A stretch of 64,000 bases of DNA from Sycobia sp. Sy_11 (lineage: Eukaryota > Arthropoda > Insecta > Hymenoptera > Epichrysomallidae): positions 456,001 to 520,000 of the forward strand of contig JACCIC010000224.1 in assembly GCA_018907035.1 (NCBI GenBank). Reading direction: 5' to 3'. The notes below the pieces were generated by a model. That model saw only the letters and a program-made list of their open reading frames with translations. It was not told the DNA's origin and made no database searches. Each line of letters starts with the position of its first letter. The stretch's first letter is position 1. The position numbers and the translations under genes are program-made. Positions 1,645-39,236 of this stretch are shown here, piece after piece.

Positions 1645-3710
1645 GTAAGCCAGTAAAAACATAAATATAAAGGATAAGCTTTACGGATGATATGAATATT
1701 TTTTAAGTTATTTCAACACACTTGAGTATATTCCGATTGACTGAGTTTTAAAATTGAAAATTTAAAAACTATTGTTATTTTTATAACAGTGTTTTTATAT
1801 TCGTTTTTCAGTAGATACAAATTATTTTATTTTCATATTATTACTAATAAAAAGAGGAAAAAATGATGAACAAATAAACTACATTCTTTCTTTCTACAGA
1901 CTTGACTAAAGTTAAGAGAAAGAAATAAAACGTGTACAAAATTTTAAAATATTTTTTAGTAAATGAATCATTGTCTACGTTTATATTACTCGAGATCTGT
2001 ATTCGAAATCTTAAGAAGATTTTAATAGAGAAAAAATTATCTAATGTGCCTGATTAAAAGTTGTATTTATCATGTGAATATCATTCATAAGTATCCAATA
2101 CTATGTCTTTCTGATTGTTGTAAAAATGCTTCATTTTTTTTTTATAATATTTTTTTAATATAGACTAGTTTAGGATTTATACTTTCAGTTAAAAGACGCC
2201 CTACTGGATGTATCGATACGTATTCATACGTATCGATAATTTCCATATTTCATATTGCAGGTTGCACCGGTTATCTCTGTTCGTGTTTAAAACTATTCGC
2301 ATATACGGATCTGCAGCAGCATATATAAAACTATTCTCATATAGCCGTGTATGATGGCGCATTATTGTACGGAAAAATCAAGAGTGGTTTTGCTATAGTT
2401 CTGGCTTTTTGTTACGAACAGCCGAGAACACTGAGAAAATATTCATTATTAGCATTTTGACCCGTCGAAAGGAATTTAGGATATACCACGCACTTATTAT
2501 TTTCACTAATCGCCACGGCTTATCTGGACTAACCTACTATTTTATTTCAATGGTAGGCATTCGCTATTACTTTTACCGGAGAAAATTATAGTACGAGTAT
2601 TCTACCAACTACTCTCTACGCCTCTTCATTTCTCATCATAATCTTCTTTACAATAAAAGCCCTAAGCATCCAATATATGGCTTTAACAACATTATATTAA
2701 TATAAATTTTAAGATGTAACAAATTATTACCTACTAAACAAATCTATAGTCTATCAATTATGTACGTAACATCCTACGTATCTATCGTTCTTAAAATGAA
2801 TCTTTGCGGCATTCGTATATTTTGAATGGCACTCAAACAACGGCTACGTTTACCTACTTGATTCAATTGATTCAAAAGTGAATTTTATATAATTTTCCCA
2901 TTTGGACATTACAGCAAAATAGACAGGATGTACCTAAAAAATGTCTAAAAAATACTGGAAAATCATTTTAAATACATATATTCTATTTAAATAGAATGCA
3001 AACCAGGCTCGTATATAAAATATATTCGACTCACATCTCTAAGCAGCGTAATAATCGTTAATAATTGATGAAAATTTTCCTTGCTAAAATCAATATTTGA
3101 CTCTTTGAAACATTTTTTTATAGAACTGCCATAAGGAAGGTCTCGATACAAAACTTCGATTGAAATATAATATATGTATATATACAACTTTGAATGTTTT
3201 TGATGAAAATATCAAATCATATATTTAGTATTGAATGAAATTTTTTAAAATTATTATATATTTGTAAGAAAGGGGCAAATAATTTATTTTCGAAGTTTAT
3301 CAAAAATGTCCACTAATTTAAATTTTAGCATATAGATTATAAGATTATTCTATTAAAAAGGTTGTTATTATGCTGATTTTAATTAAACCTTTAGAGATTA
3401 TTATGACGAAATCTTTGCTCGACATGTTTGTCAATAAAAATCCCTTAGCCATAAAATTTTAAGAGTATCGAATATATCTAATCCAACAGATGAAATTTCT
3501 CTGTATTTTAATATTCAATATAACATTATTTTTATTGTAGAATGATTAGCGTTTCTTATAGGAGGCAGGGTTGAAATAACAATGCAACGCTGGCAGTTGT
3601 GGTTCGAAATAGATCTATAATTTTATTAGGGCAAATAAATATGCAGAGCAGAAAGTAATATACAGAAGGCGCATCGACCGAGATGTAATTAAGCTAAGAC
3701 GCAGCTAATT

Positions 3711-4622
3711 CTAGTAGGAGTAGTTGATGCCGATGGGGCTGCTGTAAGTCATGTGCGAGACAGCGACGGCCGGCGAGTAGGCGACTCCGAGGAGGCTGCT
3801 GCCGTGTGCGACAGCGGGGGCGGCGTGGGCGAGGGGTGTCGAGTAGGCGACGGGGGCGACGGGCGCAGCGGCGTAGGCGGCGTGGGCGACGGGGGCGGCG
3901 GCGTAGGCTACTGGGGCAGCGTGGGCGACGGGGGCGGCGGCGTAGGCCACCGGGGCAGCGTGGGCGTAGACTCCGGGGTTGGTCACGCTGGTGAAGTGCT
4001 TGTTGCTGCTGGAGAAGGGAGTGGCGATGCTCTTGGACTGGGTGGAGATGGTGTGCAGGTTGCCGGCGCTACGGTAGACGTTGTCGGAGGTCGCCGTCAA
4101 GGCTGGCGCCTCGTAAGTCGCGACTGCGCTCGGGTAAATAGCGCCCGCATTGGCGACGGCTAAGACACAGGCTATGGCTGCGAGCTGAAAATACGGTTTA
4201 AGAAATTATTTATTTTGCACTTTTGACGATTTAGCTATTTTTTCTCGAATAATCATTATAATATTATTTAATGGAACTTCGTCAGACGCAGAATATTATT
4301 TTCGTTTGCTCCCCACCAAAGTGATGGAGGTTAATATTACGAGGTAAATAATGAACTTGCATAGTAGGATGAAACGATATTTTACCCACTAGAACCGCAA
4401 ATTCGTGTAGAAAACGTGATTCTGAGTTTGGAGTGAAGAAAATGCTTTTTTTACTATGTAATATAAAATAAACCGAAATTAATAATTTAAAAGAAAACCA
4501 CATTAAAATTCCGTTATGCTGTATTGATGTATTAGATACTGAATAGCGGTTACCGAATTTAAATCGAATAAGCAATTGAAATTATGCGAATTTTGTATGT
4601 TGTTACAAACCTTGGCGAACAT
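3711..4622 (-). CDS. CPF/CPFL-type cuticular protein, copy A (2 exons)
   Basis: Secreted structural protein of the exoskeleton, 161 aa. Exon 1 is 4611-4622 and encodes only MFAK; the donor is GTTTGT. The intron is 4185-4610, with acceptor TTTTCAG. Exon 2 is 3711-4184. Residues 1-17 form a signal peptide (hydrophobic core LAAIACVLAVANA). Residues about 32-76 match the conserved CPF/CPFL motif, with the landmarks YRSAGNL, STQSKSIATPFSS and VTNPGV. The remainder is a low-complexity A/P/V/H/Y tail with repeated AAPVA and AHAAPVAYAA units, ending INYSY. No chitin-binding Rebers-Riddiford motif is present. A TATA box lies at 4701-4708 and an AATAAA signal at 3622-3627. Family assignment rests on motif recall; the gene structure is read directly. 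The mature protein is identical to copies B and C. Confidence 0.88.
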
Positions 4623-4700
4623 GGTTGCTTGAATTGTTTATTCGACTGTTCGGATCAACGAAGTTCGTCTGAACTATGCTCTCATTGTAAATTTCGGCAC

Positions 4701-4708
4701 CTTTTATA
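4701..4708 (-). promoter_or_regulatory. TATA box of cuticular gene copy A
   Basis: TATAAAAG on the minus strand, 79 bases upstream of the ATG. A CA dinucleotide lies 31 bases downstream (A at 4677), the usual start distance, and TTCAGA lies 38 bases downstream. Copy B has both at the same spacings although the rest of its promoter differs. Confidence 0.7.
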
Positions 4709-6255
4709 CTACTGACTCCGCCCAATATTTTGTAAAGTGGGGATACTTAAACCTTGAATTTGAGCTCCTTACAAAGGAAAAGTACTTTCGCCAGGATCTT
4801 ACCTCTACGACCATCGACGGAAATCCAAGGTGACTCAAATTTGTCGATTAAATGCATATGATCATGAGATGTTTGCAGAACAGAAAATGTAGCTTTAGTA
4901 TAATTTAATGTAAAAAATGAATTTTGGTATAATTTAATATTAAAAATTAATTTCCATAATAAAAATTTCGAATTAGAATTTGTGGACAAATAAGGAAACA
5001 TGAATCTGTAAAAACTCTTGTTCTATTTAACATATTATACAATATTTGCATAAGTATATAAGTACTTTTTGAAAATTTGCGACCCGGATTGTTTTAAAAA
5101 CAATTATAGATGATGTAATTATTCAGAAACAGGAAGATGAAAAATAAAGAAAAATTATGGAAAAAATTATAATATCTAATAAATTAGCAGACAAAGTTGA
5201 AGAGAACAAGAAAGAAATAGTTATAAAATAAATGCGAATTTCAATACGAAATGTTATACTCATGGCTATGGCATACCATTTTCTTTATAAAATAGTAATA
5301 AGCTGTCACAGAAAAAAATGAATTTGTATTTTTTAATTACATCAAATATTTGGCAGTTAAATGAAAATAGTGGAATCTATGAACGTGAGTAGTTTTCTAC
5401 ACGCATATTTTTTTTTATGTGTACCAAACAGTTTAGAATACTACTTCAGGCATGTAATACTTAATTTATAATTCTACTTAGGAGATATTACTAAGATTTG
5501 ACATCGGGAATGAATTTAATATAATAGTGAAATTTATTATTATGTAGTATGTGAAAAGAATGTAAATATCTTTCTCGTGTAAGTTATATTATCTCATCAC
5601 CTAGAAAGCAAAGGACTCCGTGGCTTAATTTAACATAGCTTCAGAAATATCAGATTAAAAAGAGAAATTCAACTTAACTTATACTTTGCCGAGATCTATA
5701 AATGATAAAAAATTATAATATCCTTTACTTTTTTTAAAATTAAATTAAGCCATGAAATCATTTATAAAGCTTGATTTTTCATTTAAGTATTTCAATCACT
5801 TGGCATTCGTATGTTTAGAGAAATTATAAGAGATAATTTAGTTCATTTGTATTATTGCATTTGGTACAGATATTATAATTAGAGATCTTAAAATTATTTA
5901 ATGTCTTTAGTATGATTTATTGCTGACTTAGAATAGAATGCCTACACTAAACTATTTATTATTGCAATTTTAAGTATATAATCAGTAATCATGCCGATAA
6001 AACTGAACATTATTTACTTTGATGCTTGTTTACTAAAAATCTTTAAAATATTATCTGAAATGAGTGAAATTTACTGCTTATTCTTTCGAAATAATTTATA
6101 TATAATTCACGTACATACTACACGTAGTTTTAATATCATTTAAAATTTATAGATCAAAAGGTGTATACGAATTTAGAATAATATACTATTTAACAAGTCT
6201 TGGAATGAGGTGAATGATTTATAGATTTTTAATATTTGGATCACTAGGAATTTAC

Positions 6256-6261
<6 letters not shown>

Positions 6262-6309
<48 letters not shown>
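6262..6309. repeat. (TA)n microsatellite
   Basis: Pure TA dinucleotide tract of about 48 bases. Confidence 0.95.
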
Positions 6310-6312
<3 letters not shown>

Positions 6313-6975
6313 TAATTCTTTTTATATACTTTATAATTCCTTAATATTTTTTAATTATAACCAAAAACTTTATATCAAGTTAAAAGGACATGTTTATTGG
6401 ATAACGTGGCGTATAATTTTTATTGGATTAATAAAAATTATAAGTTTTTGCACAAATTTTCTTCAATAAAATGTTTTAATATTATATGCCGCCTCGTAGT
6501 GTAATGTTTAAGATATTGTAATACGTTTTACCCTATATTATTTTTTCAAAAGAAGATAAAAGAATATTATTTTTAAGATTTAAATAAAATATTTATATCG
6601 AGCGTGTTATTTAAAAATTTATTTTTAAATATGCTAAATTTGTGTAATGTATAGTTAAAGACTACTAGATGATCAGAAATCTTATTTATACATTATATTA
6701 TAAAATGTCAAACGAACAGTAATTCCAAAATGAATTATTGTATTTTGGAAAATTATATGTACTATAAAAAATATGATAATTTTTAGAAAACTGTTGTATT
6801 TGTTAATGAAATAATTTAAAATAATCACTTCATCAATTTTATAGGCAATAATCGTGATCTAATAAATTTTAAACGAAATTGACAAAATAATGTTTGATAT
6901 ATATATAATCTTTTAGAGATTAATTTTTATTTAATATATACTGCTCGAAAAGATACAAATATAAATAAATAAATA

Positions 6976-6980
<5 letters not shown>

Positions 6981-7023
<43 letters not shown>
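6981..7023. repeat. (AT)n microsatellite
   Basis: About 43 bases of AT. It is followed at 7024-7053 by a 30-base segment that recurs with three mismatches at 39329-39358, a short distance after another (TA)n tract. Confidence 0.95.
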
Positions 7024-7027
<4 letters not shown>

Positions 7028-8316
7028 CACACTGCTTTGATTCAATAGTGTTCCTTGTCATATGTTTTGGAAGATTTGAAAGGATTGAAAGATTTATAAT
7101 ATATACAGCTTCCTGCAAAGCCTGAGGCTACCATCAATTTGATCTGAAGTGCTGGCTAAATTCTATATAATGTATGTAACAGGTTGCGCAAAAATCGCTT
7201 ACTCGTATTCTCCTGTTCTTATTTTATTGGGCGCGGTCATATTTAATCATTTTCTTTTTTCTGTTCTCTCTTCCATCACATATGAGAATTTTTAAAAGTT
7301 GGCTCAGCGCATGCGAGCGGAAAATCGAACGCTATTATGGAAATATCATTTGACTGCTCTTTCGTACGTAATCGGATATGATTTAAAAGGGTGCCTGCAT
7401 GGTCAAGGTCATTAATACATCCACGTTAAAGAAAACATCAAGATAATAACAAGATTTTTCATCAATTTCGACAATTTCTTTCACATATATTACATATAAC
7501 TTTATTACATATACGTATAAGTAATACATTTGTTTAAAAAGATATAATTTTAAAAATTAAAAATTGTAATGATGTCAACTGATTTGAATTAAATTAATAA
7601 ATATTTTTAATAGTATATATAAAAGTAAAATATAAAATAAATAGTGCCAGTATATATAGTATACATAAATATAGTCAGTAAAAAGTTTTAGAGTCTTTAT
7701 ATAATATATTATACTAAAATAATGACAGTTAGATTGTCCTAATGTTTTTGATTCACCCCCGAAAAATCTGAAATACAACTTCTTACTAAAAACAAATTAG
7801 ATTAAAAATTAAAAATCATAAAAATAATAAACTATATTTTATGTTAACAAAGGACAACCTGACTACCCCCACCACCTTAAATTTAAATGTAACTTAAATG
7901 ACCGACGTTTCGAACCTCTACCATTCAACTTCAAGGACTAAACCAAATTTATATTATTATATAAACAAAACTACCCCGGTGGCTATTACACGGCAGATAT
8001 TATAAAGAATTATAGATTTATAATAAGGATTTATGAAAATAATCTTATTATTGATCAAGAAAATTAAATTATTACTTTTTATTAATTAAAATATCGATCT
8101 TTCTAAAAATGATCATGTTTTTATAATGTAAAGATTTATTTTATGTTTAGGATGAAGTTATATAAGGCTATAAAGTAATTCATATTTTAAAATGCTTCCA
8201 ATAAAATAAACATTTTATAAGAATTACCGAATGGACTTCTTTTATAACTATATATTTATACTTTAATAACTTTTAATATCATAAAATATTAGTCGGATAT
8301 CATAAAATATTATCGT

Positions 8317-8360
8317 AGCAGCAGCAGCAGCAGCAGCAGAAGCAGCAGCAGCAGCATCAG
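8317..8360. repeat. (CAG)n trinucleotide tract
   Basis: An imperfect CAG run interrupted by one GAA-type and one CAT unit. No coding frame around it is supported. Confidence 0.9.
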
Positions 8361-9188
8361 TAATAATAGTAACAATTTATATTTATTTATTGTTCTTCAT
8401 TGCTGATGTTTACTTATTATTATCAAATCGATCTCAGGAACAGTATGGAGTTCCTTTTAATTTAATTTTAATTTTATTTTGATAATACAAAAATCGCTGT
8501 AAATATGCCTTTACAGGTTGTAATCGATACAATAAATTTTTTAATATGTTTAATTTGACAAGAAAGGAATACTTTTTTATCAATAAACGAAATTGCCTTG
8601 TATATAAATTTATAAATATTAGAGTAATTTCATTAAAAATTATGTTTTCCTTATAAAATTAAAAGAACATGTATCACTTTTTGTAATGAGGCAAACAATT
8701 ACGACTGAAGACATAATTCTAGTAAGTCTTGTCAATGTATAATAATAGTGGCTCTTCGAAAGTATTCTTTAATTAAGAAACGTGAATTTCTAAAGAAATT
8801 AAATATACATTTATTTTTGGAAATGATATAGAATTTAGCGATATATCACTTACGACTCAAATGTATTTTTTTTCATTAATATAATTTTTTGTACATTTAT
8901 TGTAAATGTACCATTAGGTATAATCATCTATTAGTATTTAACCAAGCATGCGATTTTCATTTTATATTATGATTTGAAAAGAAAAAAATCATAATGAAAA
9001 TTATTTGTCTCCATACTTGTAATATTGAAAAATGGTGCCCTGTTTTGAATAATAAAAGATTTAAACTGTTGAAAATTTGCATAATTAATCATGCGATTCA
9101 TAGACAGTCATTTATAGGTACATTTTTAATTTCCATTTTACTTACAAAAATTAAATAACTATATAACTATTAAATTATATTCAGTAAT

Positions 9189-9190
<2 letters not shown>

Positions 9191-9247
<57 letters not shown>
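9191..9247. repeat. (TA)n microsatellite
   Basis: Pure TA dinucleotide tract of about 57 bases. Confidence 0.95.
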
Positions 9248-9251
<4 letters not shown>

Positions 9252-9948
9252 ATTATATCTTGTGTCAAATAGTACAGTATTGCCTGAATTAAAATTATAT
9301 TTCTTTTATTTCATATTTAAATGAATAATGTTTTTTTATTTAAATTAGGGATATTTTTTGTATAACGCTGCTCATATAAACACATCTTTAATTGTTTTTA
9401 CTACTCCCTGTAATGAAGATTAAATGTTGTTAAAAATTTTTTTTTGTACTCATCAACAACTTGTTCGCAGAAGCGTTTTTTATATATTATGAATTGTATT
9501 TTACATATTTATGATATTAGGATTTCTTCGAATATGTATTTCCTTTTTTTAGTCTTACATATACAAATAAGTTTATTAACGAACTCCAATGAATAGGAAT
9601 TCTCCAATAACATCTTTATTACAATTTTCAAAGCATTTTATGAATTTTTTTTGTTAGATAATAATATAACTGCTTGAACTAGATTCAAAATAATATTTTA
9701 CAATAATAATAATAAACATTATGAAGATCGCCATAACCATAAGCTTAACTTCATTTATTGAATAAATTCTGAGAATTCTGAAGAATGATAAAATTTGATA
9801 TTTTCAATTAAAGACGTTTCTTTTTAATTATAAATATTTTATTTTCAATTTGCAAATAATTAAAATTAAATGATAATTTTCGAATAATTGTAAGCATATA
9901 ATCATCTAAAGAGCGTAAATTCTAAGTAATATAAAATATTATACGAGT

Positions 9949-10149
9949 TTATTGAAGATAACCTTCGAGATACAACTGGAACCTTTTATAGAATTCCAGT
10001 TCCTCCCTTTTATCATCGTCCCCTTCACAAGGACTGTAAATTTGACGGTACGCGAAAACACCGACATTGTTAGCGATAAGTGTCTGCCCTCGGGCTATCG
10101 TATTTAATATGTTCCAGAACTCATGCAGTGCCTTTTTTGTCATTTCCAC
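9949..10149 (-). CDS. Candidate terminal coding exon, unrecognised
   Basis: The minus strand has an acceptor-like T-rich tract ending CAAG, then 66 open codons ending in TAA. The translation is not AT-biased filler: it contains FWNILNTIARGQTLIANN, GVFAYRQIYSPCEGDDDKRE and ELEFYKRFQLYLEGYL. This looks like a real or recently decayed C-terminal exon, but I cannot name the family. The open frame continues upstream to 10179 without an ATG. No partner exon was identified on the minus strand, where the next upstream sequence is GC-rich and then a SINE. It may be a fragment of a host gene moved here by a transposon. Confidence 0.35.
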   Translation of the reverse strand: MEMTKKALHEFWNILNTIARGQTLIANNVGVFAYRQIYSPCEGDDDKREELEFYKRFQLYLEGYLQ

Positions 10150-10455
10150 CTTGAAAAAAGGGGTCAAAGTTTTGCGCAACCTGCGCAGGGCTCGCTCCGG
10201 GCACGCCTCACCTTGGCGGGCGGCGAGAGGCGAGCCTTCAAATATTATAAGGCCACATTTCGGTGTAATTGCGTTAAAGAAAGAGAATGTCTTATCGGAA
10301 TTCTGTAGTTTCTTTTGTGATTCGCACGCGACCCTAAATCAGGAAGAAGGAAACACATAGTTGCAGGCTTTGCATATATTAATTAAACAAAAGTCTGGAA
10401 GTTCGGATTTTCTGGAGATTTATAATAATTAACATCAATTATCAATCAAAAAATC

Positions 10456-10662
10456 TACTGTTTTTTTATGTTATTTAACGTCGCTCTATTTATGCTTCCA
10501 AATATCAATTCTAATCAGCGACGGAGGTCTACGATGTGATTGTAAACAAAGCACATGTAAACTATTATAGCGGTGCTGTGTCGATCGGCAGAGACCGGAA
10601 TTTGAACTCGGACCACCAAGTTACTAGTTCTTCGTTCTAGCGATCGAGACATCGTAGGCCTC
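10456..10662 (-). mobile_element. tRNA-type SINE, copy 1
   Basis: The reverse complement matches the element at 22753-22957 along its full length with scattered substitutions. The head carries an A-box-like segment (tctcgatcgctagaac) and a B-box-like segment (gagttcaaattccgg), the order and spacing of RNA polymerase III promoters in tRNA-derived SINEs. The tail ends in gcgacgttaaataac followed by an A-rich stretch. No target-site duplication is clear for this copy. Confidence 0.8.
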
Positions 10663-10779
10663 AAATTTTATTTGGTTTATTATTTTGTCCTACAAGTGGC
10701 AACTTATGTATGCAAATGACACCTAAAATTTATAATAATTATTTTCTTTAAAAACACTAGCACCACGTGGAGCACAAGA

Positions 10780-11743
10780 CAAATTACACCAAGTGTAATT
10801 TCAACATGACGACCTGTTGGTCATCATTTATACTGAATCATTTATACTAAAATTAACCATTGTGAAGTTCGTCAATGGCTGAGAAGTTTTTAATGCAGTA
10901 AAATGTAATCGTTAGGGAATATTAATAGTAATCGAAGCTAAAAAGACCATATTTTTAAAGAAAATATTTAGATTGTTTAAAGTACAAAACATCGTTGCTA
11001 GGGACGATATCTCAGAAGTTTTTAGCGCTAAAATATTGAAATAAAATGCATTTTACTAAGTTTAAAAAAAGAAAGTTTTTGAGCCCTTGCACATTTTCAT
11101 AAGACCAATAGAAGTTCAGAAATCTTTTGTTTAAACTTTTGTTTACTACTTACCATTTGATTAACATTTTAACTTCAAATTTGGCAAGGCGCAAATAAAA
11201 AGGTTCAACTATCTTTAGATTTATTAATACATTCTAAATGGTTAGTAATTATGTTAAAATCAAACATTTATAAAAAGCTTTTACGCGTGTGATCAGCGAC
11301 GGCCGGTGGTGGTATATCTATCCTCGCGCCGACATCGCGTTGTCGCCTACTGATCATGCGCACATTCGCTCACTATGTCACAGACAGCTCCAGATACGTT
11401 CATGTCAATCTTACTTGTAAAATAGGAGTTTTTTACAATAAAACTATTTCGACAAATTACAACTATTTCGATGTTTTTTTTTTAATTTAAGTTTATTTTT
11501 TTTAATGTTCATAGTATTCTTGTTTTTAATACAGTAATTCTATTATATCGAATGTATCCAAACATAAATGAATTCTTTTAAACTTTATATGGGTTTATTT
11601 TAGAATTAAAAATTACTATTACTTCATCTTTTGTTTCATATTATAATATTTACGTAATTCAATATTAGTTCTGCTTTTTTGTCATACCCAATTTTGCCCA
11701 AAATAAAATAATGCGCCATGTTGAAATTACACTTTGTAATTTG
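10780..11743. mobile_element. Possible non-autonomous element with 27-nt inverted ends
   Basis: Sequence 10780-10808 (caaattacaccaagtgtaat, then ttcaacatg) recurs in reverse complement at 11718-11743, with a two-base gap. The interior of about 0.9 kb has no coding capacity. The order fits a MITE or deleted DNA transposon. No clear target-site duplication was found, so the exact ends are uncertain. Confidence 0.45.
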
Positions 11744-12616
11744 AAGCATATTATGACTAGATAAGACATCTATTTACGCCATTATTATGAAATTTCTATT
11801 GTTTAAATAAATTTTATAGCTCTTTGTCTATCAAATATTTTTCTATTTTCATTGTTTATTTAACAATAGAGAAATGGACTTTTTCATATTTTTAATGTAC
11901 GTACTTATTTCAGAATTATGTCCTGCACAACTTTTATACGAAACATTTTTCGATTAGAGCAATATTTTTTAAATTAGTGAAGAAAAAGCAAAAAAAGCAT
12001 GTTTTTTGGCTATTTTGCAATAAATAAATAGGTTCACGATCAGTTACGATCCCGACAATTGAAGGTCTTATTCTACACATCGTCAGTTATCGTTTAATGC
12101 AAAAAAATAGCCCTTGGAAAAAATGTTGAACTTATGCTTTTTGCGGTATTTATAATAGATGTCATAGTGCTTTTTTACTGAAATTGAATTGGAATGATAA
12201 AATCAATACAAAAGTATAAAAATGATAGCATTCTGGGATTATAAGAATATTTTAAAAATTTTTTTAAAAGAAATGTACATCTCATAAAACTGCATCTTTT
12301 TTGTTTTATTCATTTTTTTGGTACAACCGATATTTGTGAAGAAAAATTTAACAATTTTATCTAGGGTTGCTTCGAAAATCATCAAATTGTGGCTATGCTT
12401 CAGAAAGAACCCATATCTGATTTCGCTTAAAATTGGCGTATTACCGTTTGTTCGTATGATGATCATTATTACTATCGTTATGATTCTTGATACATTTTGG
12501 ATATTTATAGCAAAATACATAACAATTACGTAAATGCATAAACATTATGTTCTGTGAAATATTTTTAAGAATTTGACATAGTTTTACATCTACTAAAGTG
12601 TGTCTTGACTCATATA
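11744..12616. other. Spacer, nothing recognised
   Basis: AT-rich sequence. Overlapping short open frames on both strands around 12239-12626 are not supported by splice signals or by any familiar protein. Confidence 0.5.
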
Positions 12617-13480: not shown

Positions 13481-13602
13481 TATTTCTGTTTTAGATGTTT
13501 TTGCTGTAGATCTTTTATTTTTTCAAAAAAATACATACGAAGTGAGAAACGTTCTTAGAGTGAAACTTCATGAGCTATATAGCAGTGTCTATACGTTAGG
13601 AA

Positions 13603-13659
<57 letters not shown>

Positions 13660-14388: not shown

Positions 14389-14394
<6 letters not shown>

Positions 14395-18865: not shown

Positions 18866-20121
18866 AGTTTCCGGTCTGACCAAGAAATGGCGTCACTAGG
18901 CCTACCTTGAGGGGGCCATCAATAGTACTATTCTTCGATAGTTTGTAGCTATAGTTTCAGTTCGATCGCCATGTGAGTTTAGGTTTGAGAACACGCTGAA
19001 CAAGACGCCTCTGTGTTTTTCGTAAAAATGGAAAAGCTGGAAAATCGTGCTGTCATCAAATACTTTTATTTGAATGGGTTAACGCCGAAGGAAATTAAAG
19101 AAGAGATGGAGTCAACACTGGGGACATCCTTCCCATTATATTCAACCCTTAAGCAGTGGGTTTCCGAGTTTAAAAAGGATCGTGTGAGCACCTTTGATGA
19201 GCCTCGCTCAGGACGCCCCATTGAGGTCACAAGTCCAGATATGATCGAAAAAATCCATCAAATAGTGCTGAAAGACCGCAGATTAAAAGTGCGTGAGATA
19301 GCTGAGACCTGTAAGATGTCATATGAACGTGTACAAAATATTTTGCACCAACACTTGTATATGAAAAACGCCCTGTGCAATATGGGTGCCACTTTTGCTA
19401 ACAGTCGACCAAAAATTGATTCGAAAGAACATTTCTACCGCCAATTTGGCGTTATATAAGCGTAATCTAAGCGCATTTTTGCGTCGATTCGTAACCGTTG
19501 ACGAAACTTGGGTCCATCACTACAGTCCTGAAACCAAACAACAGTCTAAACAGTGCATTGGACCAGGGAAACCAACTACAAAAAAGGCAAAAACAATTTT
19601 TTCGGAGAACAAGGTTATGGCTACTGTTTTTTGGAACGCAAGAGGTATTATATACATTGATTACCTTGAAAAAGATAACTATCACTAGTCAATACTACGC
19701 AGACTTCTTACAACGTTTGAGCCACGAAGTGAAAATTAAATGACATCATCTGGTGAAGAAAAAAATCTTGTTTCATCACGATAACGCACCAGCGCACACC
19801 TCAACCGTTGCGATAGCGAAAATCAACGATCTGAAGTGGGAATTGATGCCGCACCCTTCCTACTCTCCAGATCTAGCCCCGAGTGACTATTATCTGTTTC
19901 CTAACCTCAAAAAATGACTTGGCGGTAAGAGATTTGCGGACAATGAAGAAGTAATCGAAGCTGTAAATAGGTATTTTGAGGAGCTTGACGACTCAGTCTA
20001 TAGAGATGGCGTTACTAGACTAGAACACCGCTGTGAGAAATGTATCAGCCTTGGAGGAGATTATGTTGACAAATAAAAAAAATTCTTCAAAACGTTGTTT
20101 TTCTTGGTTAGGCCGGAAACT
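18866..20121 (+). pseudogene. Mariner transposon inserted in the LINE, decayed transposase
   Basis: The element is 1,256 bp, flanked by TA (18864-18865, 20122-20123). It has inverted ends agtttccggtctgaccaaga and, at the right in reverse complement, agtttccggcctaaccaaga (two mismatches). The transposase starts with MEKLENRAVIKYFYLNG at 19028. It continues through a helix-turn-helix and a SGRP motif to about 19450, then shifts frame to VTVDETWVHHYSPE (first catalytic Asp). Later parts carry HHDNAPAH and APSDYYLFPN with 34 residues between the Asp residues (DD34D). A frameshift near 19400 and stops at 19741 and 19916 make it non-functional. Ends are intact, so it could still be a substrate for a related transposase. 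Confidence 0.9.

Positions 20122-27298: not shown

Positions 27299-27301
<3 letters not shown>

Positions 27302-27342
<41 letters not shown>
27302..27342. repeat. (AT)n microsatellite, left of mariner
   Basis: An AT tract running directly into the mariner terminus. It continues on the other side of the element at 28531-28588. Confidence 0.95.

Positions 27343-27346
<4 letters not shown>

Positions 27347-28527: not shown

Positions 28528-28530
<3 letters not shown>

Positions 28531-28588
<58 letters not shown>
28531..28588. repeat. (AT)n microsatellite, right of mariner
   Basis: The right half of the AT tract that hosts the mariner. Confidence 0.95.
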
Positions 28589-28590
<2 letters not shown>

Positions 28591-29031
28591 CCCGAGCTCC
28601 ACTTCTCAAAAAGTATAATAAGCTACGTCCCTAAAAGGTCGATAGTGTAGAACATTCTATTTACTTTTGCAAACCACCGCAATTGATTTTTCTACTAGTA
28701 GCTGCGATCAATTTGGACTTCCTTCAAAGGTATGCAGCACTCGTGCGTAAATTCCTAAGGAGAAAAAATATACATTTTCAAAACCGTTAAATTCTTAAAA
28801 CTTTCTTTTAATCCGATGGCTATATAATAAGGGTTTCCTTTTGAACACTTGATCACATTATCCATTATATCTAATTTCAGTATGGGGGGCCCACATAGAG
28901 AAAAATCTTGAAGAAATATTGTAGTAACATTGCGACAATGTTTTGAGGATATACAGTAATATTACAGCAAGATCACTGATTCATCAAAATGTCCTAGGCA
29001 TTTTGAGCACAGCAATATTTCTACGATATTT
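28589..29031. other. Spacer, nothing recognised
   Basis: No coding or terminal-repeat signature. The short words gtagtaacattgcgacaat and cagtaatattacagcaagat suggest an old repeat but are not enough to call one. Confidence 0.45.
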
Positions 29032-29033
29032 TA

Positions 29034-29956
29034 TGAGGGCGGTTCAATAAGCTAACTGTGTTAGAAATGGAGAACACCATTTTATCAACAATATTTTTTT
29101 TATTTTTCAACATAGTTCCCTTTTAGAAAGATACACTTCTCTCAACGTTCTGACCATTTTTTTAACCCCTCCGAAAAAAGGATTTTTCGAACTCTCCTAA
29201 TAAGCCTCTGTCTCGACGATGACTTCCTCGTTTGAGAAAAATTTTTTTCCCGCGAGCCATTTCTTCATGTTAGGGAACAAGAAGAAGTCGCAGGGAGCCA
29301 GATTGAGTGAATACGGGGGGTGCGGCAGTGATTGATAACACAATTTATGCAGTTTGGTGGCGACAACTCCAGAAGAATATGCTGGTGCGTTATCGTGATT
29401 AAACGATACCTTTTTTTCACCAAATGTGACCGTGTCTCCTTCAATATTTGTCAAAGCTGTCCAATAACTCACTGTTGTATTGTCCAGTGATCGTTCTTCC
29501 TTTTTCTAAAAAGTCCATCAAGATGATGCTCTTCGCATCCCAAATCGTCGTCATGGCCATCCGGCCGATGGGACCGCCTTCGCCTTCTTTGGAGCAGATT
29601 CACCACGAGAAATCCATCGTTTTGATTATTGCATAGTTTCTAGTGTGTAATGATGAATCCAGGTTTCATTAATGGTGACAACTCGATGCAAAAAGTCCTT
29701 CGGACCTCGCTTAAATTATTCCAAACAGTGTTTCGAAGTTAACAGCCGCTTCCGCTTGTTGTCTACCATGAGCAATCACGGTACCCATCGGACCGACAAT
29801 TTTTTAATACCCAACTTATCATATAAAATATTACTATCAATCAGTCTGACATTTATTTTGGCGTCGTTTGATAGATGGCAGTACACGATAATAACACCAG
29901 CTTCCCTTAAGAACGTCCTCTGTCTTCAAACAGGGGTACTTATTGAACCGCTCTCG
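29034..29956 (-). pseudogene. Mariner transposon, minus orientation, internally deleted
   Basis: TA flanks at 29032-29033 and 29957-29958. Inverted ends are tgagggcggttcaataagct and, at the right in reverse complement, cgagagcggttcaataagta. The catalytic part on the minus strand (29197-29472) carries FNHDNAPAY and LAPCDFFLFPNMKKWLAGKK with 34 residues between the Asp residues (DD34D). An earlier part near 29560-29760 gives further mariner-like fragments out of frame. At 923 bp it is about 0.4 kb shorter than a full mariner, and it is broken. Confidence 0.85.
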
Positions 29957-29958
29957 TA

Positions 29959-30554
29959 TACTATGTAGATATATTAATTTGAATGTTTTATATTCTTTTA
30001 TACTATTCCTTAAACATAGTTATATTTTATTAGTACTAGTAAATAATATATTTTAATGGTATTTCAGATAGATTGCATACAAACTTGATAATACGAAGAC
30101 TTTTTCCTCTAAAGACTGATTCCCCTCGTTAGAAATCCAATCTAAAATTCAATGGTTATATTACATGATGCTCTCATATGCAAATAATTATACATAATTT
30201 ATGATTTCTTTTACCGTAAAATTGTGGTTATATATAAATAATATATATCGCCCATTGATAACAAAAGTTTATCAAAAGAAAAATATATATTTTATACGGG
30301 CTATATATTAAATCTATATTCGACTACTGTGTATGTAGTGCATAAATGTGTTTTATTTTATTATATTATAACCGTTCAAATCTCAATCAATCAATTTTGA
30401 CATTCATATATAAAATGATAAAAGAGACTCTATTTGTCATTTTAAATACGGAAAATCAGTACAAGTAGTTTTATCGAATATATAAATTTCATAAATTTAA
30501 TTTATAGTAATTTTATTACGAATTTGATGATGTGTGTTTTTTTGACTGTGTTTT
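29959..30554. other. Spacer, nothing recognised
   Basis: AT-rich sequence without recognised features. Confidence 0.5.
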
Positions 30555-30820
30555 TTAGCTAATGTAGCTGCATGTACTTTCAATGAAGGTTCTTTTGCTC
30601 TATTAGCCATTATGAAAAAGATGCAAATCAGTACAGGGTCAAGTTTCCACGAATGGGCGCGACAAGTTGACGAGTTGCGAATCAATAGAGCAGAGGAACA
30701 AGCGTCACACGACAGTAATGAGAAGGAAGAGTTTTACGTACACAAATAGAAAAAGATGATTTAGACCATGTGGATGAATGCATTTTGCTACGTCGACCTG
30801 ATATTGACGATTCTATATGA
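30555..30820 (+). pseudogene. Fragment of a Kolobok-like transposase, C-terminal
   Basis: An open stretch reads NVAACTFNEGSFALLAIMKK and then SSFHEWARQVDELRINRAEE. It is clearly related to the AACIFNEGFGPLLKIM region of the TTAA transposon at 15092-16553. After a frame change near 30749 it ends in a polar tail, CILLRRPDIDDSI, with TGA at 30818-30820. The following 0.4 kb (to about 31250) looks like the non-coding 3' part of the same element type. Ends and target duplication were not identified. Confidence 0.65.
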
Positions 30821-31758
30821 ACCTGAAAGAATTATAAAGTTTTATTGTAAATTTTTTAGTTTACAAAACTTTTAAGCCGCTTCCTGAAAACTGCCATTTT
30901 TGAAGACCGTGTACATCCTCACAGAAAATCTATGGAACTGATTGGTTTGAAATTTTGTACAGTACATCTTTACATAATTCATCAGGTAACGACATCGAGT
31001 TTTTTGGTTATTTTTTTTAATTCTTAATTTTAAAGTAACAAATAACCCGATTTTTTATAGCAAAAATCGGATTTTTGGCTTCTTAGAGCTACCAAAAAAT
31101 AAAAATAAAATTAAAAAAAACTCAACAACGTTACCAGAGAAAATATCTACTTTGAAGAATGCACTTTGGTTTTTGCGATTTCGATGATTCTGTGGTGCGT
31201 AATCGTGTACACCGCAAAACAACTTTTTTTTCGAGGAGGCTCCGGAGATTCATTCACTTAATTTTCAATATTTTTCAATGACAATTTAAGAAAATATTGT
31301 TCAAATGATACATTATTATATGAAAATTGACTGGTTAATCCGACTGTATCTGTGTCGCCAGAAAGAATTCTTAAAAACATGCCTGTTTTATACCAAATTA
31401 ACTTACCCCCCCCCCCTTTCCTATGGGCTCTACATAAACAAATATGATATTTAGGGAGTTTCGTGTTGTTTTAAATTTGAATGTTCTTTATTTAGTCACA
31501 ATAACTATAATTTCCTTAAATTTTCTATTCTTTTCTTGTAGGCGAAATTGTCAATTCAAATATATTATTTAGAGCAAAAATTCTATAAAATGAAATAGAT
31601 CTGTTTCGATATATTCTACAACTTTTGTTTGAAACGTTTATTAAATTTTTAATATTTTTCTATTAAACACTGAAAACCATAATTTTTATGAGTTTTCGCG
31701 GTCCATGTAGCGTATGTAGCTTATAAGCTTATATATATTAAGCTTATAATTAGCATTT

Positions 31759-31761
<3 letters not shown>

Positions 31762-31812
<51 letters not shown>
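31762..31812. repeat. (AT)n microsatellite
   Basis: Pure AT tract of about 51 bases. Confidence 0.95.
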
Positions 31813-31815
<3 letters not shown>

Positions 31816-32445
31816 TCTATCTCATAAATGTATTTTATGAGCACCCGATGAATTACTTACACATCACTGACGTAAGCTACTAAAAAATGATTATGCTGGG
31901 ATAATCATTTTTTACAAGTTACAAATCATAATATACAAAATCGCGTCCGATTATACGTAAAATTACCAATTTGCTTATATTATACGTTTACTTTTTTCAA
32001 AACTTTATATCATTGTTTTAAAAAAAATTAGAATTTGTTTAAAATTAAAATATTATTAAGCTTCCAACACAGCTTCGAATCATTTAATTGAGTAAAATTG
32101 GTTTCTTTACAATTTAAACAATTTCCATTGATATAGAATAACCACATCATTTTTATAGAATTTTATATATGTTCGACAAAGACACTGCAAACATAGCAGG
32201 ATCCACCGAAAATGCTATTTTACTTTTCTATATCTTTATGGCAAGGAATAGTATACAAATATTAAGTGAATAGGTTTTTAATACCAAGAAAAACGTATGT
32301 TAATGTTCGAGCGAAATAACTGCTACTTTCATAATACGATATATCTCCAATATGTGGGATTTAAAATGTTTTATATATTTATTCATCTTCTATATTCAAG
32401 TGCATTTAAGAAAAAAGGAAAGCAAAATTGAAAGTTATATTCGTA

Positions 32446-32449
<4 letters not shown>

Positions 32450-32496
<47 letters not shown>
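32450..32496. repeat. (AT)n microsatellite
   Basis: Pure AT tract of about 47 bases, about 430 bases upstream of the TATA box of cuticular gene B. Confidence 0.95.
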
Positions 32497-32500
<4 letters not shown>

Positions 32501-32930
32501 GTGCGTGCGTGTATATCATTATAATTGTTATACTTCTGCGTTTAAAGTTTTTTTAATTTTTTCATATTTTTAGATTTTTGAAAAATCCATCACCAAGCTT
32601 TTCACAAAATCTTTCTATTATTGAATAAGTTTATTTTTTTCACATGCATCATTCCACAAATAATATACAATATATACAATGCGTAAAAATATAGATTATT
32701 TAAAATTGCACACAACAAAACAATATGTATATATATTCAGTAAGAAAGTTTTGCCCCAAAGGCATCGCCAATTCGTGCAGATCCTTCAGGGCAATTTAAT
32801 CTGGACCAAGGCTGTCACTCGTAGCTTGGCGAAAGTAATCGTGTACCTTATGCATACACTGCGAAGTGAGAGCTCCCCACCTTCGTCAAAATACGATTTT
32901 GGGCGTCGGCCAGTCTCGCGTCTCCTTAGG

Positions 32931-32938
32931 TATAAAAA
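32931..32938 (+). promoter_or_regulatory. TATA box of cuticular gene copy B
   Basis: TATAAAAA, with a CA start site 31 bases downstream (A at 32962) and TTCAGA 38 bases downstream, exactly the spacings of copies A and C. The surrounding promoter and 5' UTR are otherwise different, so the spacing is conserved between diverged promoters. Confidence 0.72.
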
Positions 32939-33033
32939 GATATCGCGCATGCCAAAACGGCAGAATTCAGAGACATTACATCTCCTCCGACATTTCTTTG
33001 ACAAACATCGCCGCAGCGCAAAATCTAGCCATC

Positions 33034-34396
33034 ATGTTCATCAAAGTAAGCATCACGTTTTAAATGACTGTTGATACATAATCGTACATTTTTTATAACA
33101 TAGAAATTTTGATGAATAATTAATAATCATTTGATGGCTAATTTAGTTGATGTCTCATATTTGTCTTTCATAATAGAGAGATTTTTTTAAACTTCGGATT
33201 TCAATGATTACTATTGTCATTAGTATTTAAAAAATTTAATTCTTATTTTCTTTGTATAGTAATCAAAACTCATTCTGTTTCCTATGGTTCATAGTTCCGA
33301 ATCATTAACTATTGTTTTGATTTGAATTAATATCCTATATACTGTATCCACCCTTGAATAAATAAGAATCCTTTTTGATTATTACATATTTCATTGAGAT
33401 GCCGAGTATGAACAACTTTAATCATTATTTACTTTCTATTTTGAATTTTATTATTAGTTTTTCTTAAATTATTAAGAGATAGAGTAAATTTGATTTTGTT
33501 ATTTAATATATTTCCAACTAGAGAGGTAAAATATATTTGAAAATCAGATTTTATTAATAAGACGATCAATTTGGGTCTTAAACTGAAAAAAGAATGTCCT
33601 TTTTATTTTATGAATTGATCCAAAAGAATAATTGCATTTTATTTCAAGAAATAATAATGTAGTTATTTATAAAAACAGTATTCCCAATAAAAAATTCAGT
33701 CACAGGTAGGAATTCCTATTTGTATAATTTAATAAAAATTTATATACTTTTTTCTGGTTCCAATTAATTTGTTAGTCGCTAAAATACTCGCCTTTGTTTT
33801 TCTACTTAAGTTATATCAAAACATAAATGATTTTATTAAAATTTTTGCTCATATATTGTATTTATTATTTAATTTTCGAATTAATCTAAAAATATCTACT
33901 TAAAAGAAATTTTTTTCTGCAGTTCGCAGTCGTTGCTTGTGTCTTAGCCGTCGCCAATGCGGGCGCTATTTACCCGAGCGCAGTCGCGACTTACGAGGCG
34001 CCAGCCTTGACGGCGACCTCCGACAACGTCTACCGTAGCGCCGGCAACCTGCACACCATCTCCACCCAGTCCAAGAGCATCGCCACTCCCTTCTCCAGCA
34101 GCAACAAGCACTTCACCAGCGTGACCAACCCCGGAGTCTACGCCCACGCTGCCCCGGTGGCCTACGCCGCCGCCCCCGTCGCCCACGCTGCCCCAGTAGC
34201 CTACGCCGCCGCCCCCGTCGCCCACGCCGCCTACGCCGCTGCGCCCGTCGCCCCCGTCGCCTACTCGACACCCCTCGCCCACGCCGCCCCCGCTGTCGCA
34301 CACGGCAGCAGCCTCCTCGGAGTCGCCTACTCGCCGGCCGTCGCTGTCTCGCACATGACTTACAGCAGCCCCATCGGCATCAACTACTCCTACTAG
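33034..34396 (+). CDS. CPF/CPFL-type cuticular protein, copy B (2 exons, chimeric origin)
   Basis: 161 aa. Exon 1 is 33034-33045 (MFIK, donor GTAAGC). The intron of 877 bases is unlike that of A/C, and its acceptor is ttctgcag. Exon 2 is 33923-34396. The signal peptide differs slightly from A/C (FAVVACVLAVANA). Five of the first 15 bases of exon 2 differ from copies A and C, and from base 16 on the exon is identical. The mature protein, CPF-like motif (about residues 32-76) and A/P/V-rich tail are therefore the same. AATAAA lies at 34480-34485. Two TATA-driven paralogs thus encode one product. The abrupt change from diverged to identical sequence indicates gene conversion or an inverted duplication that replaced the 3' part of an older paralog. 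Confidence 0.88.
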
Positions 34397-35569
34397 AATT
34401 AGCTGCGTCTTAGCTTAATTACATCTCGGTCGATGCGCCTTCTGTATATTACTTTCTGCTCTGCATATTTATTTGCCCTAATAAAATTATAGATCTATTT
34501 CGAACCACAACTGCCAGCGTTGCATTGTTATTTCAACCCTGCCTCCTATAAGAAACGCTAATCATTCTACAATAAAAATAATGTTATATTGAATATTAAA
34601 ATACAGAGAAATTTCATCTGTTGGATTAGATATATTCGATACTCTTAAAATTTTATGGCTAAGGGATTTTTATTGACAAACATGTCGAGCAAAGATTTCG
34701 TCATAATAATCTCTAAAGGTTTAATTAAAATCAGCATAATAACAACCTTTTTAATAGAATAATCTTATAATCTATATGCTAAAATTTAAATTAGTGGACA
34801 TTTTTGATAAACTTCGAAAATAAATTATTTGCCCCTTTCTTACAAATATATAATAATTTTAAAAAATTTCATTCAATACTAAATATATGATTTGATATTT
34901 TCATCAAAAACATTCAAAGTTGTATATATACATATATTATATTTCAATCGAAGTTTTGTATCGAGACCTTCCTTATGGCAGTTCTATAAAAAAATGTTTC
35001 AAAGAGTCAAATATTGATTTTAGCAAGGAAAATTTTCATCAATTATTAACGATTATTACGCTGCTTAGAGATGTGAGTCGAATATATTTTATATACGAGC
35101 CTGGTTTGCATTCTATTTAAATAGAATATATGTATTTAAAATGATTTTCCAGTATTTTTTAGACATTTTTTAGGTACATCCTGTCTATTTTGCTGTAATG
35201 TCCAAATGGGAAAATTATATAAAATTCACTTTTGAATCAATTGAATCAAGTAGGTAAACGTAGCCGTTGTTTGAGTGCCATTCAAAATATACGAATGCCG
35301 CAAAGATTCATTTTAAGAACGATAGATACGTAGGATGTTACGTACATAATTGATAGACTATAGATTTGTTTAGTAGGTAATAATTTGTTACATCTTAAAA
35401 TTTATATTAATATAATGTTGTTAAAGCCATATATTGGATGCTTAGGGCTTTTATTGTAAAGAAGATTATGATGAGAAATGAAGAGGCGTAGAGAGTAGTT
35501 GGTAGAATACTCGTACTATAATTTTCTCCGGTAAAAGTAATAGCGAATGCCTACGAATGAAATAAAATG
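33938..35569 (+). repeat. Left arm of palindrome (inverted copy of 36463-38094)
   Basis: Each position x pairs with 72032 minus x. Both open frames (34007-34396, 34920-35120) recur in inverted orientation at exactly mirrored coordinates. Identity is complete where checked up to 35551; the last 18 bases show two or three mismatches. The arm ends within about three bases of the start of block C. Confidence 0.93.
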
Positions 35570-36462
35570 GATAAGCCAGTAAAACATAAATATAAAGGAT
35601 AAGCTTTACGGATGATATGAATATTTTTTAAGTTATTTCAACACACTTGAGTATATTCCGATTGACTGAGTTTTAAAATTGAAAATTTAAAAACTATTGT
35701 TATTTTTATAACAATGTTTTTATATTCGTTTTTCAGTAGATACAAATTATTTTATTTTCATATTATTACTAATAAAAAGAGGAAAAAATGATGAACAAAT
35801 AAACTACATTCTTTCTTTCTACAGACTTGACTAAAGTTAAGAGAAAGAAATAAAACGTGTACAAAATTTTAAAATATTTTTTAGTAAATGAATCATTGTC
35901 TACGTTTATATTACTCGAGATCTGTATTCGAAATCTTAAGAAGATTTTAATAGAGAAAAAATTATCTAATGTGCCTGATTAAAAGTTGTATTTATCATGT
36001 GAATATCATTCATAAGTATCCAATACTATGTCTTTCTGATTGTTGTAAAAATGCTTCATTTTTTTTTTATAATATTTTTTTAATATAGACTAGTTTAGGA
36101 TTTATACTTTCAGTTAAAAGACGCCCTACTGGATGTATCGATACGTATTCATACGTATCGATAATTTCCATATTTCATATTGCAGGTTGCACCGGTTATC
36201 TCTGTTCGTGTTTAAAACTATTCGCATATACGGATCTGCAGCAGCATATATAAAACTATTCTCATATAGCCGTGTATGATGGCGCATTATTGTACGGAAA
36301 AATCAAGAGTGGTTTTGCTATAGTTCTGGCTTTTTGTTACGAACAGCCGAGAACACTGAGAAAATATTCATTATTAGCATTTTGACCCGTCGAAAGGAAT
36401 TTAGGATATACCACGCACTTATTATTTTCACTAATCGCCACGGCTTATCTGGACTAACCTAC

Positions 36463-38094
36463 TATTTTATTTCAATGGTAGGCATTCGCTATTACTTTTA
36501 CCGGAGAAAATTATAGTACGAGTATTCTACCAACTACTCTCTACGCCTCTTCATTTCTCATCATAATCTTCTTTACAATAAAAGCCCTAAGCATCCAATA
36601 TATGGCTTTAACAACATTATATTAATATAAATTTTAAGATGTAACAAATTATTACCTACTAAACAAATCTATAGTCTATCAATTATGTACGTAACATCCT
36701 ACGTATCTATCGTTCTTAAAATGAATCTTTGCGGCATTCGTATATTTTGAATGGCACTCAAACAACGGCTACGTTTACCTACTTGATTCAATTGATTCAA
36801 AAGTGAATTTTATATAATTTTCCCATTTGGACATTACAGCAAAATAGACAGGATGTACCTAAAAAATGTCTAAAAAATACTGGAAAATCATTTTAAATAC
36901 ATATATTCTATTTAAATAGAATGCAAACCAGGCTCGTATATAAAATATATTCGACTCACATCTCTAAGCAGCGTAATAATCGTTAATAATTGATGAAAAT
37001 TTTCCTTGCTAAAATCAATATTTGACTCTTTGAAACATTTTTTTATAGAACTGCCATAAGGAAGGTCTCGATACAAAACTTCGATTGAAATATAATATAT
37101 GTATATATACAACTTTGAATGTTTTTGATGAAAATATCAAATCATATATTTAGTATTGAATGAAATTTTTTAAAATTATTATATATTTGTAAGAAAGGGG
37201 CAAATAATTTATTTTCGAAGTTTATCAAAAATGTCCACTAATTTAAATTTTAGCATATAGATTATAAGATTATTCTATTAAAAAGGTTGTTATTATGCTG
37301 ATTTTAATTAAACCTTTAGAGATTATTATGACGAAATCTTTGCTCGACATGTTTGTCAATAAAAATCCCTTAGCCATAAAATTTTAAGAGTATCGAATAT
37401 ATCTAATCCAACAGATGAAATTTCTCTGTATTTTAATATTCAATATAACATTATTTTTATTGTAGAATGATTAGCGTTTCTTATAGGAGGCAGGGTTGAA
37501 ATAACAATGCAACGCTGGCAGTTGTGGTTCGAAATAGATCTATAATTTTATTAGGGCAAATAAATATGCAGAGCAGAAAGTAATATACAGAAGGCGCATC
37601 GACCGAGATGTAATTAAGCTAAGACGCAGCTAATTCTAGTAGGAGTAGTTGATGCCGATGGGGCTGCTGTAAGTCATGTGCGAGACAGCGACGGCCGGCG
37701 AGTAGGCGACTCCGAGGAGGCTGCTGCCGTGTGCGACAGCGGGGGCGGCGTGGGCGAGGGGTGTCGAGTAGGCGACGGGGGCGACGGGCGCAGCGGCGTA
37801 GGCGGCGTGGGCGACGGGGGCGGCGGCGTAGGCTACTGGGGCAGCGTGGGCGACGGGGGCGGCGGCGTAGGCCACCGGGGCAGCGTGGGCGTAGACTCCG
37901 GGGTTGGTCACGCTGGTGAAGTGCTTGTTGCTGCTGGAGAAGGGAGTGGCGATGCTCTTGGACTGGGTGGAGATGGTGTGCAGGTTGCCGGCGCTACGGT
38001 AGACGTTGTCGGAGGTCGCCGTCAAGGCTGGCGCCTCGTAAGTCGCGACTGCGCTCGGGTAAATAGCGCCCGCATTGGCGACGGCTAAGACACA
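36463..38094 (-). repeat. Right arm of palindrome
   Basis: Inverted counterpart of 33938-35569. The loop between the arms, 35570-36462, is about 0.9 kb and is single-copy relative to the palindrome, but it is part of direct block C. Confidence 0.93.
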
Positions 38095-38547
38095 GGCTAT
38101 GGCTGCGAGCTGAAAATACGGTTTAAGAAATTATTTATTTTGCACTTTTGACGATTTAGCTATTTTTTCTCGAATAATCATTATAATATTATTTAATGGA
38201 ACTTCGTCAGACGCAGAATATTATTTTCGTTTGCTCCCCACCAAAGTGATGGAGGTTAATATTACGAGGTAAATAATGAACTTGCATAGTAGGATGAAAC
38301 GATATTTTACCCACTAGAACCGCAAATTCGTGTAGAAAACGTGATTCTGAGTTTGGAGTGAAGAAAATGCTTTTTTTACTATGTAATATAAAATAAACCG
38401 AAATTAATAATTTAAAAGAAAACCACATTAAAATTCCGTTATGCTGTATTGATGTATTAGATACTGAATAGCGGTTACCGAATTTAAATCGAATAAGCAA
38501 TTGAAATTATGCGAATTTTGTATGTTGTTACAAACCTTGGCGAACAT
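37636..38547 (-). CDS. CPF/CPFL-type cuticular protein, copy C (2 exons)
   Basis: Exon 1 is 38536-38547 (MFAK), the intron 38110-38535 and exon 2 37636-38109. The sequence is identical to copy A in exons, intron and promoter where compared. The protein has 161 aa with signal peptide, CPF-like motif (YRSAGNL, STQSKSIATPFSS, VTNPGV) and A/P/V/H/Y-rich tail. It lies tail-to-tail with copy B across the palindrome, about 3.2 kb between stop codons. The AATAAA signal is at 37547-37552. It has no disabling change, so it should be expressible in the same way as copy A. Confidence 0.88.
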
Positions 38548-38625
38548 GGTTGCTTGAATTGTTTATTCGACTGTTCGGATCAACGAAGTTCGTCTGAACT
38601 ATGCTCTCATTGTAAATTTCGGCAC

Positions 38626-38633
38626 CTTTTATA
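38626..38633 (-). promoter_or_regulatory. TATA box of cuticular gene copy C
   Basis: TATAAAAG at the position equivalent to 4701-4708 in block A; the promoter sequence is the same. Confidence 0.7.
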
Positions 38634-39236
38634 CTACTGACTCCGCCCAATATTTTGTAAAGTGGGGATACTTAAACCTTGAATTTGAGCTCCTTACAAA
38701 GGAAAAGTACTTTCGCCAGGATCTTACCTCTACGACCATCGACGGAAATCCAAGGTGACTCAAATTTGTCGATTAAATGCATATGATCATGAGATGTTTG
38801 CAGAACAGAAAATGTAGCTTTAGTATAATTTAATGTAAAAAATGAATTTTGGTATAATTTAATATTAAAAATTAATTTCCATAATAAAAATTTCGAATTA
38901 GAATTTGTGGACAAATAAGGAAACATGAATCTGTAAAAACTCTTGTTCTATTTAACATATTATACAATATTTGCATAAGTATATAAGTACTTTTTGAAAA
39001 TTTGCGACCCGGATTGTTTTAAAAACAATTATAGATGATGTAATTATTCAGAAACAGGAAGATGAAAAATAAAGAAAAATTATGGAAAAAATTATAATAT
39101 CTAATAAATTAGCAGACAAAGTTGAAGAGAACAAGAAAGAAATAGTTATAAAATAAATGCGAATTTCAATACGAAATGTTATACTCATGGCTATGGCATA
39201 CCATTTTCTTTATAAAATTATAATAAGCTGTCAGAT

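Follow-up and report, generated by a model that had tools for sequence, protein, structure and literature searches.

What process leaves several nearly identical copies of a cuticular protein gene, introns and intergenic surroundings included, within a few tens of kilobases of an insect genome, and in both orientations? The question is raised by a stretch of 64,000 nucleotides from the hymenopteran Sycobia sp. Sy_11 (the window, meaning here the whole stretch of DNA that was analysed), which occupies positions 456,001 to 520,000 of an 839-kb contig of a 621-Mb assembly in 472 contigs. The original prediction, made from the letters alone, described two near-identical blocks and offered recent duplication, gene conversion or misassembly as their source. 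Comparison of the window with itself confirms that the repeat is real in the assembly, and that it comprises three near-identical copies, one of them inverted, in the order A direct, C inverted, B direct:

Block A, 1646..5318, no strand assigned: holds one complete CPF gene, and extends about 0.6 kb beyond the TATA-like motif on the upstream side and about 2 kb past the stop.
Copy C, 33920..35568, minus strand: inverted copy of 2539-4187, also matching 36464-38112 in block B.
Block B, 35572..39244, no strand assigned: second direct copy of block A.

Blocks A and B are 99.84% identical over 3674 alignment columns, with 4 mismatches, two gaps of one base each and a reported E of 0, so the pair first described is borne out, in an account left incomplete by the missed inverted copy at 33920-35568. 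Copy C is 99.58% identical over 1649 columns, with 7 mismatches against A and likewise against B, and together with block B it makes up an inverted repeat whose 1.65-kb arms are separated by about 0.9 kb. Several details of the earlier description shift slightly. The block was placed at 1646-5307, of which the left start holds and the right end lies 11 bases further on, at 5318; its supposedly fixed offset of 33,925 applies only after position 1655, the first 9 bases being offset by 33,926, and the shift is a one-base change in an A-run at 1655. That change had been seen, together with about two substitutions; the stretch 1646-5307 in fact carries three substitutions (1789 and the adjacent 5294 and 5295) and one gap. 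The argument that introns and intergenic DNA are as conserved as exons stands, with an interior of 3504 columns (145-3648 of the A/B alignment) showing 0 differences, and selection is thereby ruled out as the source of the identity. The same count puts a 95% upper bound of about 0.09% on interior divergence between A and B, and the event that separated them must be young.

Could the copies simply be alleles, strung together in one contig as uncollapsed haplotypes? A divergence of about 0.1% is compatible with allelic variation. However, an inverted partial copy is not allelic, and the flanks differ on both sides, as had been argued against a simple haplotype overlap: their mutual matches are only AT-rich or microsatellite-like. 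The right flanks of A and B were also aligned in search of an older relationship; the score was 45, compared with a mean of 29.9 and a maximum of 51 in 100 shuffles, one of which did at least as well. We do not take this borderline match for homology; it lies in AT-rich DNA, about 0.7-1.1 kb away from the edges. In the assembly at large, none of the 35 matches to the left flank of block A is a second near-identical copy, and the 5' part of gene C, which forms the left flank of copy C, has one full-length location and one weak 73-bp match. With differing flanks, and with neither of the two flanks tested recurring in near-identical form, we treat an allelic or haplotig overlap as ruled out; its chance of being right is negligible.

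The genes within the copies are as follows, with TATA-like motifs, splice sites and signal peptides judged by eye:

Gene A exon 2, 3711..4184, minus strand: phase-0 acceptor TTTCAG followed by CTC; stop at 3711-3713; Pfam Cuticle_3 (PF11018).
Gene A exon 1, 4611..4622, minus strand: encodes MFAK; a minus-strand TATA-like motif begins at 4708.
Gene B exon 2, 37636..38109, minus strand.
Gene B exon 1, 38536..38547, minus strand: identical to exon 1 of gene A.
Gene C exon 1, 33034..33045, plus strand: its own exon, encoding MFIK; TATA-like motif at 32931.
Gene C exon 2, 33923..34396, plus strand: first codons paralog-specific, the remainder as in A and B.

The coding sequences of genes A and B are identical and encode 161 amino acids, with 426 bp separating the two exons. 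The predicted presence of a cuticular protein gene in each block is upheld by PF11018 scores above the curated cut-off of 27.1 bits (A 32.4, and by the same coding sequence B; C 33.0). A by-eye comparison with the published CPF motif VSxYSKAVDTPFSSVRKxDxRIVNxA, as given in the part of PMC7497268 consulted, finds agreement at 10 of 22 specified positions, including TPFSS. All three have open reading frames with splice consensus, and are intact predicted genes of the CPF/Cuticle_3 family. Gene C likewise encodes 161 amino acids, with an in-frame exon 2 and an intron of 877 bp (vs 426 bp in A). It departs from gene A by 8 nucleotide changes, all inside the first 27 nt of coding sequence, which amount to four amino acid changes (residues 3, 5, 7 and 8). 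Its A-type sequence begins inside exon 2 and extends 1.2 kb beyond the stop, and upstream of this its 5' region (promoter region, exon 1 and intron; 32601-33919) has no detectable similarity to that of gene A (24 of 100 shuffles reached the observed score). To the eye, MFAKLAAIACVLAVANAG and MFIKFAVVACVLAVANAG at the N-termini resemble signal peptides; were they cleaved, and the genes expressed, all three would yield one mature-protein sequence. As to composition, CPF exon 2 in its three locations (3711-4184, 33923-34396 and 37636-38109) contains internal repeats of 30 and 39 bp and is rich in G+C (68.6%, measured in A, vs 30.5% in the window).

Three junctions delimit the rearranged DNA, and it is near the edges of the copies that almost all the differences between them fall:

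Junction 1, 33920..33938, no strand assigned: point within exon 2 at which the sequence proper to gene C changes to the A type; 5 mismatches in 15 columns.
Junction 2, 35569..35571, no strand assigned: inverted copy C ends here and, after the three-base spacer GGA, block B begins.
Junction 3, 39219..39245, no strand assigned: right edge of block B, with three substitutions and a one-base insertion relative to A, and an A-run continuing into a (TA)n tract.

The differences between A and B occupy columns 10, 144, 3649, 3650, 3664 and 3666 of the 3674, each within 144 bp of the left edge or 26 bp of the right; the inner 1617 bp of copy C are identical to A and B, and all 7 of its mismatches lie within 18 bp of its ends. 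Altogether there are 13 difference columns, 12 of them no more than 26 bp from an edge. Probabilities of 1e-8 and 1e-12 can be attached to this clustering, but they are post hoc, with edges set by the aligner, and are to be read as descriptive. The mismatches at junction 1 may be ordinary differences between paralogs.

A pattern of this sort invites suspicion of the assembly itself: there may have been a misjoin, a false duplication or an inverted chimera among the molecules sequenced, or the copies may be real and consensus polishing may have wiped out the differences inside them. None of the 13 difference columns is more than 144 bp from an edge, approximately the length of a short read, so polishing could have removed interior variants; moreover, inverted chimeras carrying short shared sequence are a familiar artefact of amplification. 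Several observations stand against such an origin. Firstly, the flanks of the copies differ, and those to the left of A and of C are without a near-identical counterpart genome-wide. Secondly, in a megablast comparison of 240 kb of the contig, no further pair of repeats reached both 300 bp in length and 95% identity. Thirdly, junction 1 falls in-frame in exon 2 of gene C, which has an exon 1 and splice sites of its own, an outcome hardly to be expected of a random misjoin; and finally, with 472 contigs making up 621 Mb, the average contig of this assembly is long. We consider an artefact improbable, although if it were the answer the locus would be a clear case of inverted repeats misleading assemblies.

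Of the 27 matches returned by a search of the whole assembly with the DNA of block A, three are the copies themselves and 24 are weak. At the protein level, a search of the same 621 Mb scored seven candidates and gave three matches, A, B and C, so that the original exon 2 of gene C has apparently gone; within the window, a tblastn search for a remnant of a C-type exon 2 found nothing beyond the three copies except matches at chance level (E 0.64 or worse), and none at 39245-42500. The weak DNA matches belong largely (21 of 24) to an old dispersed repeat, 68-84% identical, at block positions 695-844 (window 2340-2489; about 36265-36414 in B). Elsewhere in the window, a degenerate dispersed repeat occupies 1314-1626, with 65-71% identity to three other places aligned. 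Degenerate mariner-like transposase fragments occur at 18989-19688, where 18989-19459 carries HTH_23 over its cut-off and HTH_48 (Mos1) under its cut-off, the remaining frames being recognised by eye. DUF1759 (PF03564), a domain known from Pao/BEL-type retroelements, scores 55.7 bits at 62817-63092. The right-hand neighbour of the CPF genes is a set of aminotransferase-like frames on the minus strand (41107-46604), of which 43921-44613 exceeds the cut-off for PF00155 and the others were identified by eye; no RNA genes were detected in the window at gathering scores.

Might a transposon have captured or moved the 3.67-kb block? The degenerate repeat just described does end about 20 bp before the left edge of block A, and the right edge of block B is a microsatellite. 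Yet neither terminal repeats nor a target-site duplication were seen by eye at the edges, and the block is present only three times in the assembly, once as a partial inverted copy. We hold movement by a transposon to be very improbable. As a separate observation, other repeat pairs longer than 250 bp listed in 164 kb around the window reach at most about 92% identity, and, given this and the lack of other high-identity pairs in the 240 kb of the contig compared, recent transposition seems rare in this region.

There remain duplication and conversion, which the original prediction rightly placed among the main options; neither in its plain form, however, accounts for an inverted copy that is fused to another gene's promoter region and exon 1 and ends 3 bases from block B. 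The reading we favour, at a probability of roughly 0.5, is that one repair event with a template switch, using gene A as donor, yielded both the chimeric gene C and the additional gene B. The ancestral state would have been an old CPF gene pair in opposite orientation, A on the minus strand at about 4 kb and C on the plus strand at about 33 kb. Gene C keeps its own start and so probably predates the event, having been overwritten from exon 2 onwards. A recent break at the start of its exon 2 would have been repaired with gene A, 28 kb away, as template: the broken C end would invade A through exon-2 homology (junction 1), and 1.65 kb of A, comprising exon 2, the 3' end and downstream DNA, would be copied to give the inverted copy. 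At 1646 synthesis would jump to the opposite strand (junction 2), the whole of block A would be copied in direct orientation to give block B, and the end would be joined at the A-run beside the (TA)n tract (junction 3). Such an event would leave an extra complete gene B and a chimeric C with its own promoter region, its own signal-peptide start and an A-type mature protein. That identity starts inside exon 2 is what one would predict had the old paralogs kept their similarity in coding sequence.

Given A as the source, a single breakpoint would serve for both the left edge of block B and the end of copy C, since the two fall at the same point within 3 bases. A is favoured as the donor because, were B instead the source of A, it would be mere chance that the left edge of A coincides with that point. 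Further points in favour of a single event are the abutting inverted copy, the exon 1 and intron that C has of its own, the apparent loss of C's original exon 2 from the assembly, the interior identity, the placement of differences at the edges, the motif TAAGCC, found near junction 2 on both template sides, and the A-run at junction 3. Others tell against it. Firstly, in a canonical event with two junctions, copying would run on beyond block A and duplicate the next 28 kb, whereas block B stops at 39244, so that a third junction is needed. Secondly, the microhomology at junction 2 is weak, and the junction requires a small local deletion or was nearly blunt. Thirdly, the A/B difference at column 144 is not near an edge.

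The main alternative, possible but rather less probable, divides the history into two steps, in which a larger direct duplication first placed a copy of A beside C, and C was then overwritten from its inverted neighbour B by ectopic gene conversion or fold-back repair. Loss of DNA between C and B would have made the junction between them and trimmed the left of block B, and would also explain the shared point. Exon 2 of B and exon 2 of C do lie in inverted orientation about 3.2 kb apart, and interlocus gene conversion among the cuticular protein genes of Drosophila, part-gene tracts included, is established in the consulted sections of Cornman 2009 (PMC2793513), which describe one array where the gene middle is homogenised and the ends are still diverged. 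The likeness to the Drosophila case is a recent exchange between neighbouring cuticular protein genes; the system described there concerns CPR gene arrays, whereas here there are a non-coding tract of about 1.2 kb, a new complete gene copy and an inverted arrangement. A limited literature search returned no paper on insect interlocus gene conversion in palindromes. For the tract to be bounded by older homology is plausible at the exon-2 side of C; at its far side, the junction 2 end, about a dozen matching bases lie beyond two mismatches, and then comes the edge of block B. Conversion need not stop at that edge, however, and a deletion must be added; the tract includes about 1.2 kb of downstream non-coding DNA in which no older homology was seen; and two events would be required, both too young for interior differences to have accumulated.

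The wider CPF family bears on the same alternative. A protein search gave 131 proteins at E up to 0.001; of the 120 listed, the four top-ranking ones belong to two chalcidoid wasps, Ceratosolen solmsi and Nasonia vitripennis, with 62-65% identity for the first three, and the DNA is accordingly taken to come from a chalcidoid-like wasp. A TPFSS core and a C-terminal YSPAVAVSHMTYSSP block are common to these and to the Sycobia proteins. Each of the two species has two differing CPF proteins among the matches listed, each pair on equally long contigs, whereas the three genes here share one mature sequence; the consulted part of PMC7497268 annotates a single CPF in the transcriptome of the wasp Microplitis mediator. 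In a tree of ten proteins (nine of the 120 listed, with A from the window), the Nasonia and Ceratosolen pairs group by species with moderate support, 88/86 and 81/99, neither at the program's strong mark. Clustering of this kind is what repeated homogenisation, or separate duplications, would lead one to expect, and it fits the two-step history to that extent.

Repair in one event with a template switch has a close counterpart in human genetics. The rearrangement is of a known kind, and the locus is a clear insect instance of it, and a very young one. According to the portions of PMC4352052 consulted, the human DUP-TRP/INV-DUP rearrangements at the PLP1 and MECP2 loci are proposed to start with break-induced replication within inverted repeats, and their second junction shows microhomology, templated insertions and raised point mutation. 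As in those portions, three copies are found here with the inverted one between two direct ones. In the human cases the first junction is inside inverted homologous sequence, and the same may hold here, where A and C are oppositely oriented and a short stretch of coding sequence at the gene starts suggests the older homology; the second, nearly blunt or of short microhomology there, may have its equivalent in the three-base spacer with TAAGCC nearby; and extra point changes occur near the junctions in both. The differences from the system as presented there are that the Sycobia case is kilobase-sized, comes from an insect reference assembly, has a short paralogous exon as its homology, and would have turned an older paralog into a chimera. 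The human form has two junctions, whereas here block B ends at 39244 and the right flank of A is not repeated after it. The existence of a third junction is the reason why we describe the locus as working like DUP-TRP/INV-DUP and do not class it as a member.

What would such an event mean for these insects? Should the single-event reading be true, the readable junctions would show a short inverted paralogous exon seeding duplication, inversion and conversion in an insect germline, and a single route would raise gene dosage and homogenise paralogs at once. A broader proposition, which we advance tentatively and with less than even confidence, is that one template-switching event, guided by inverted-paralog homology, made an extra gene and a chimera with the same mature protein, and that in chalcidoid wasps such exchanges may recur, keeping the CPF pairs of each species alike. 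For Sycobia itself, one mature cuticle protein, assigned to its family by sequence, would now be served by a pair of distinct promoter regions, a step in regulatory divergence that lends itself to testing.
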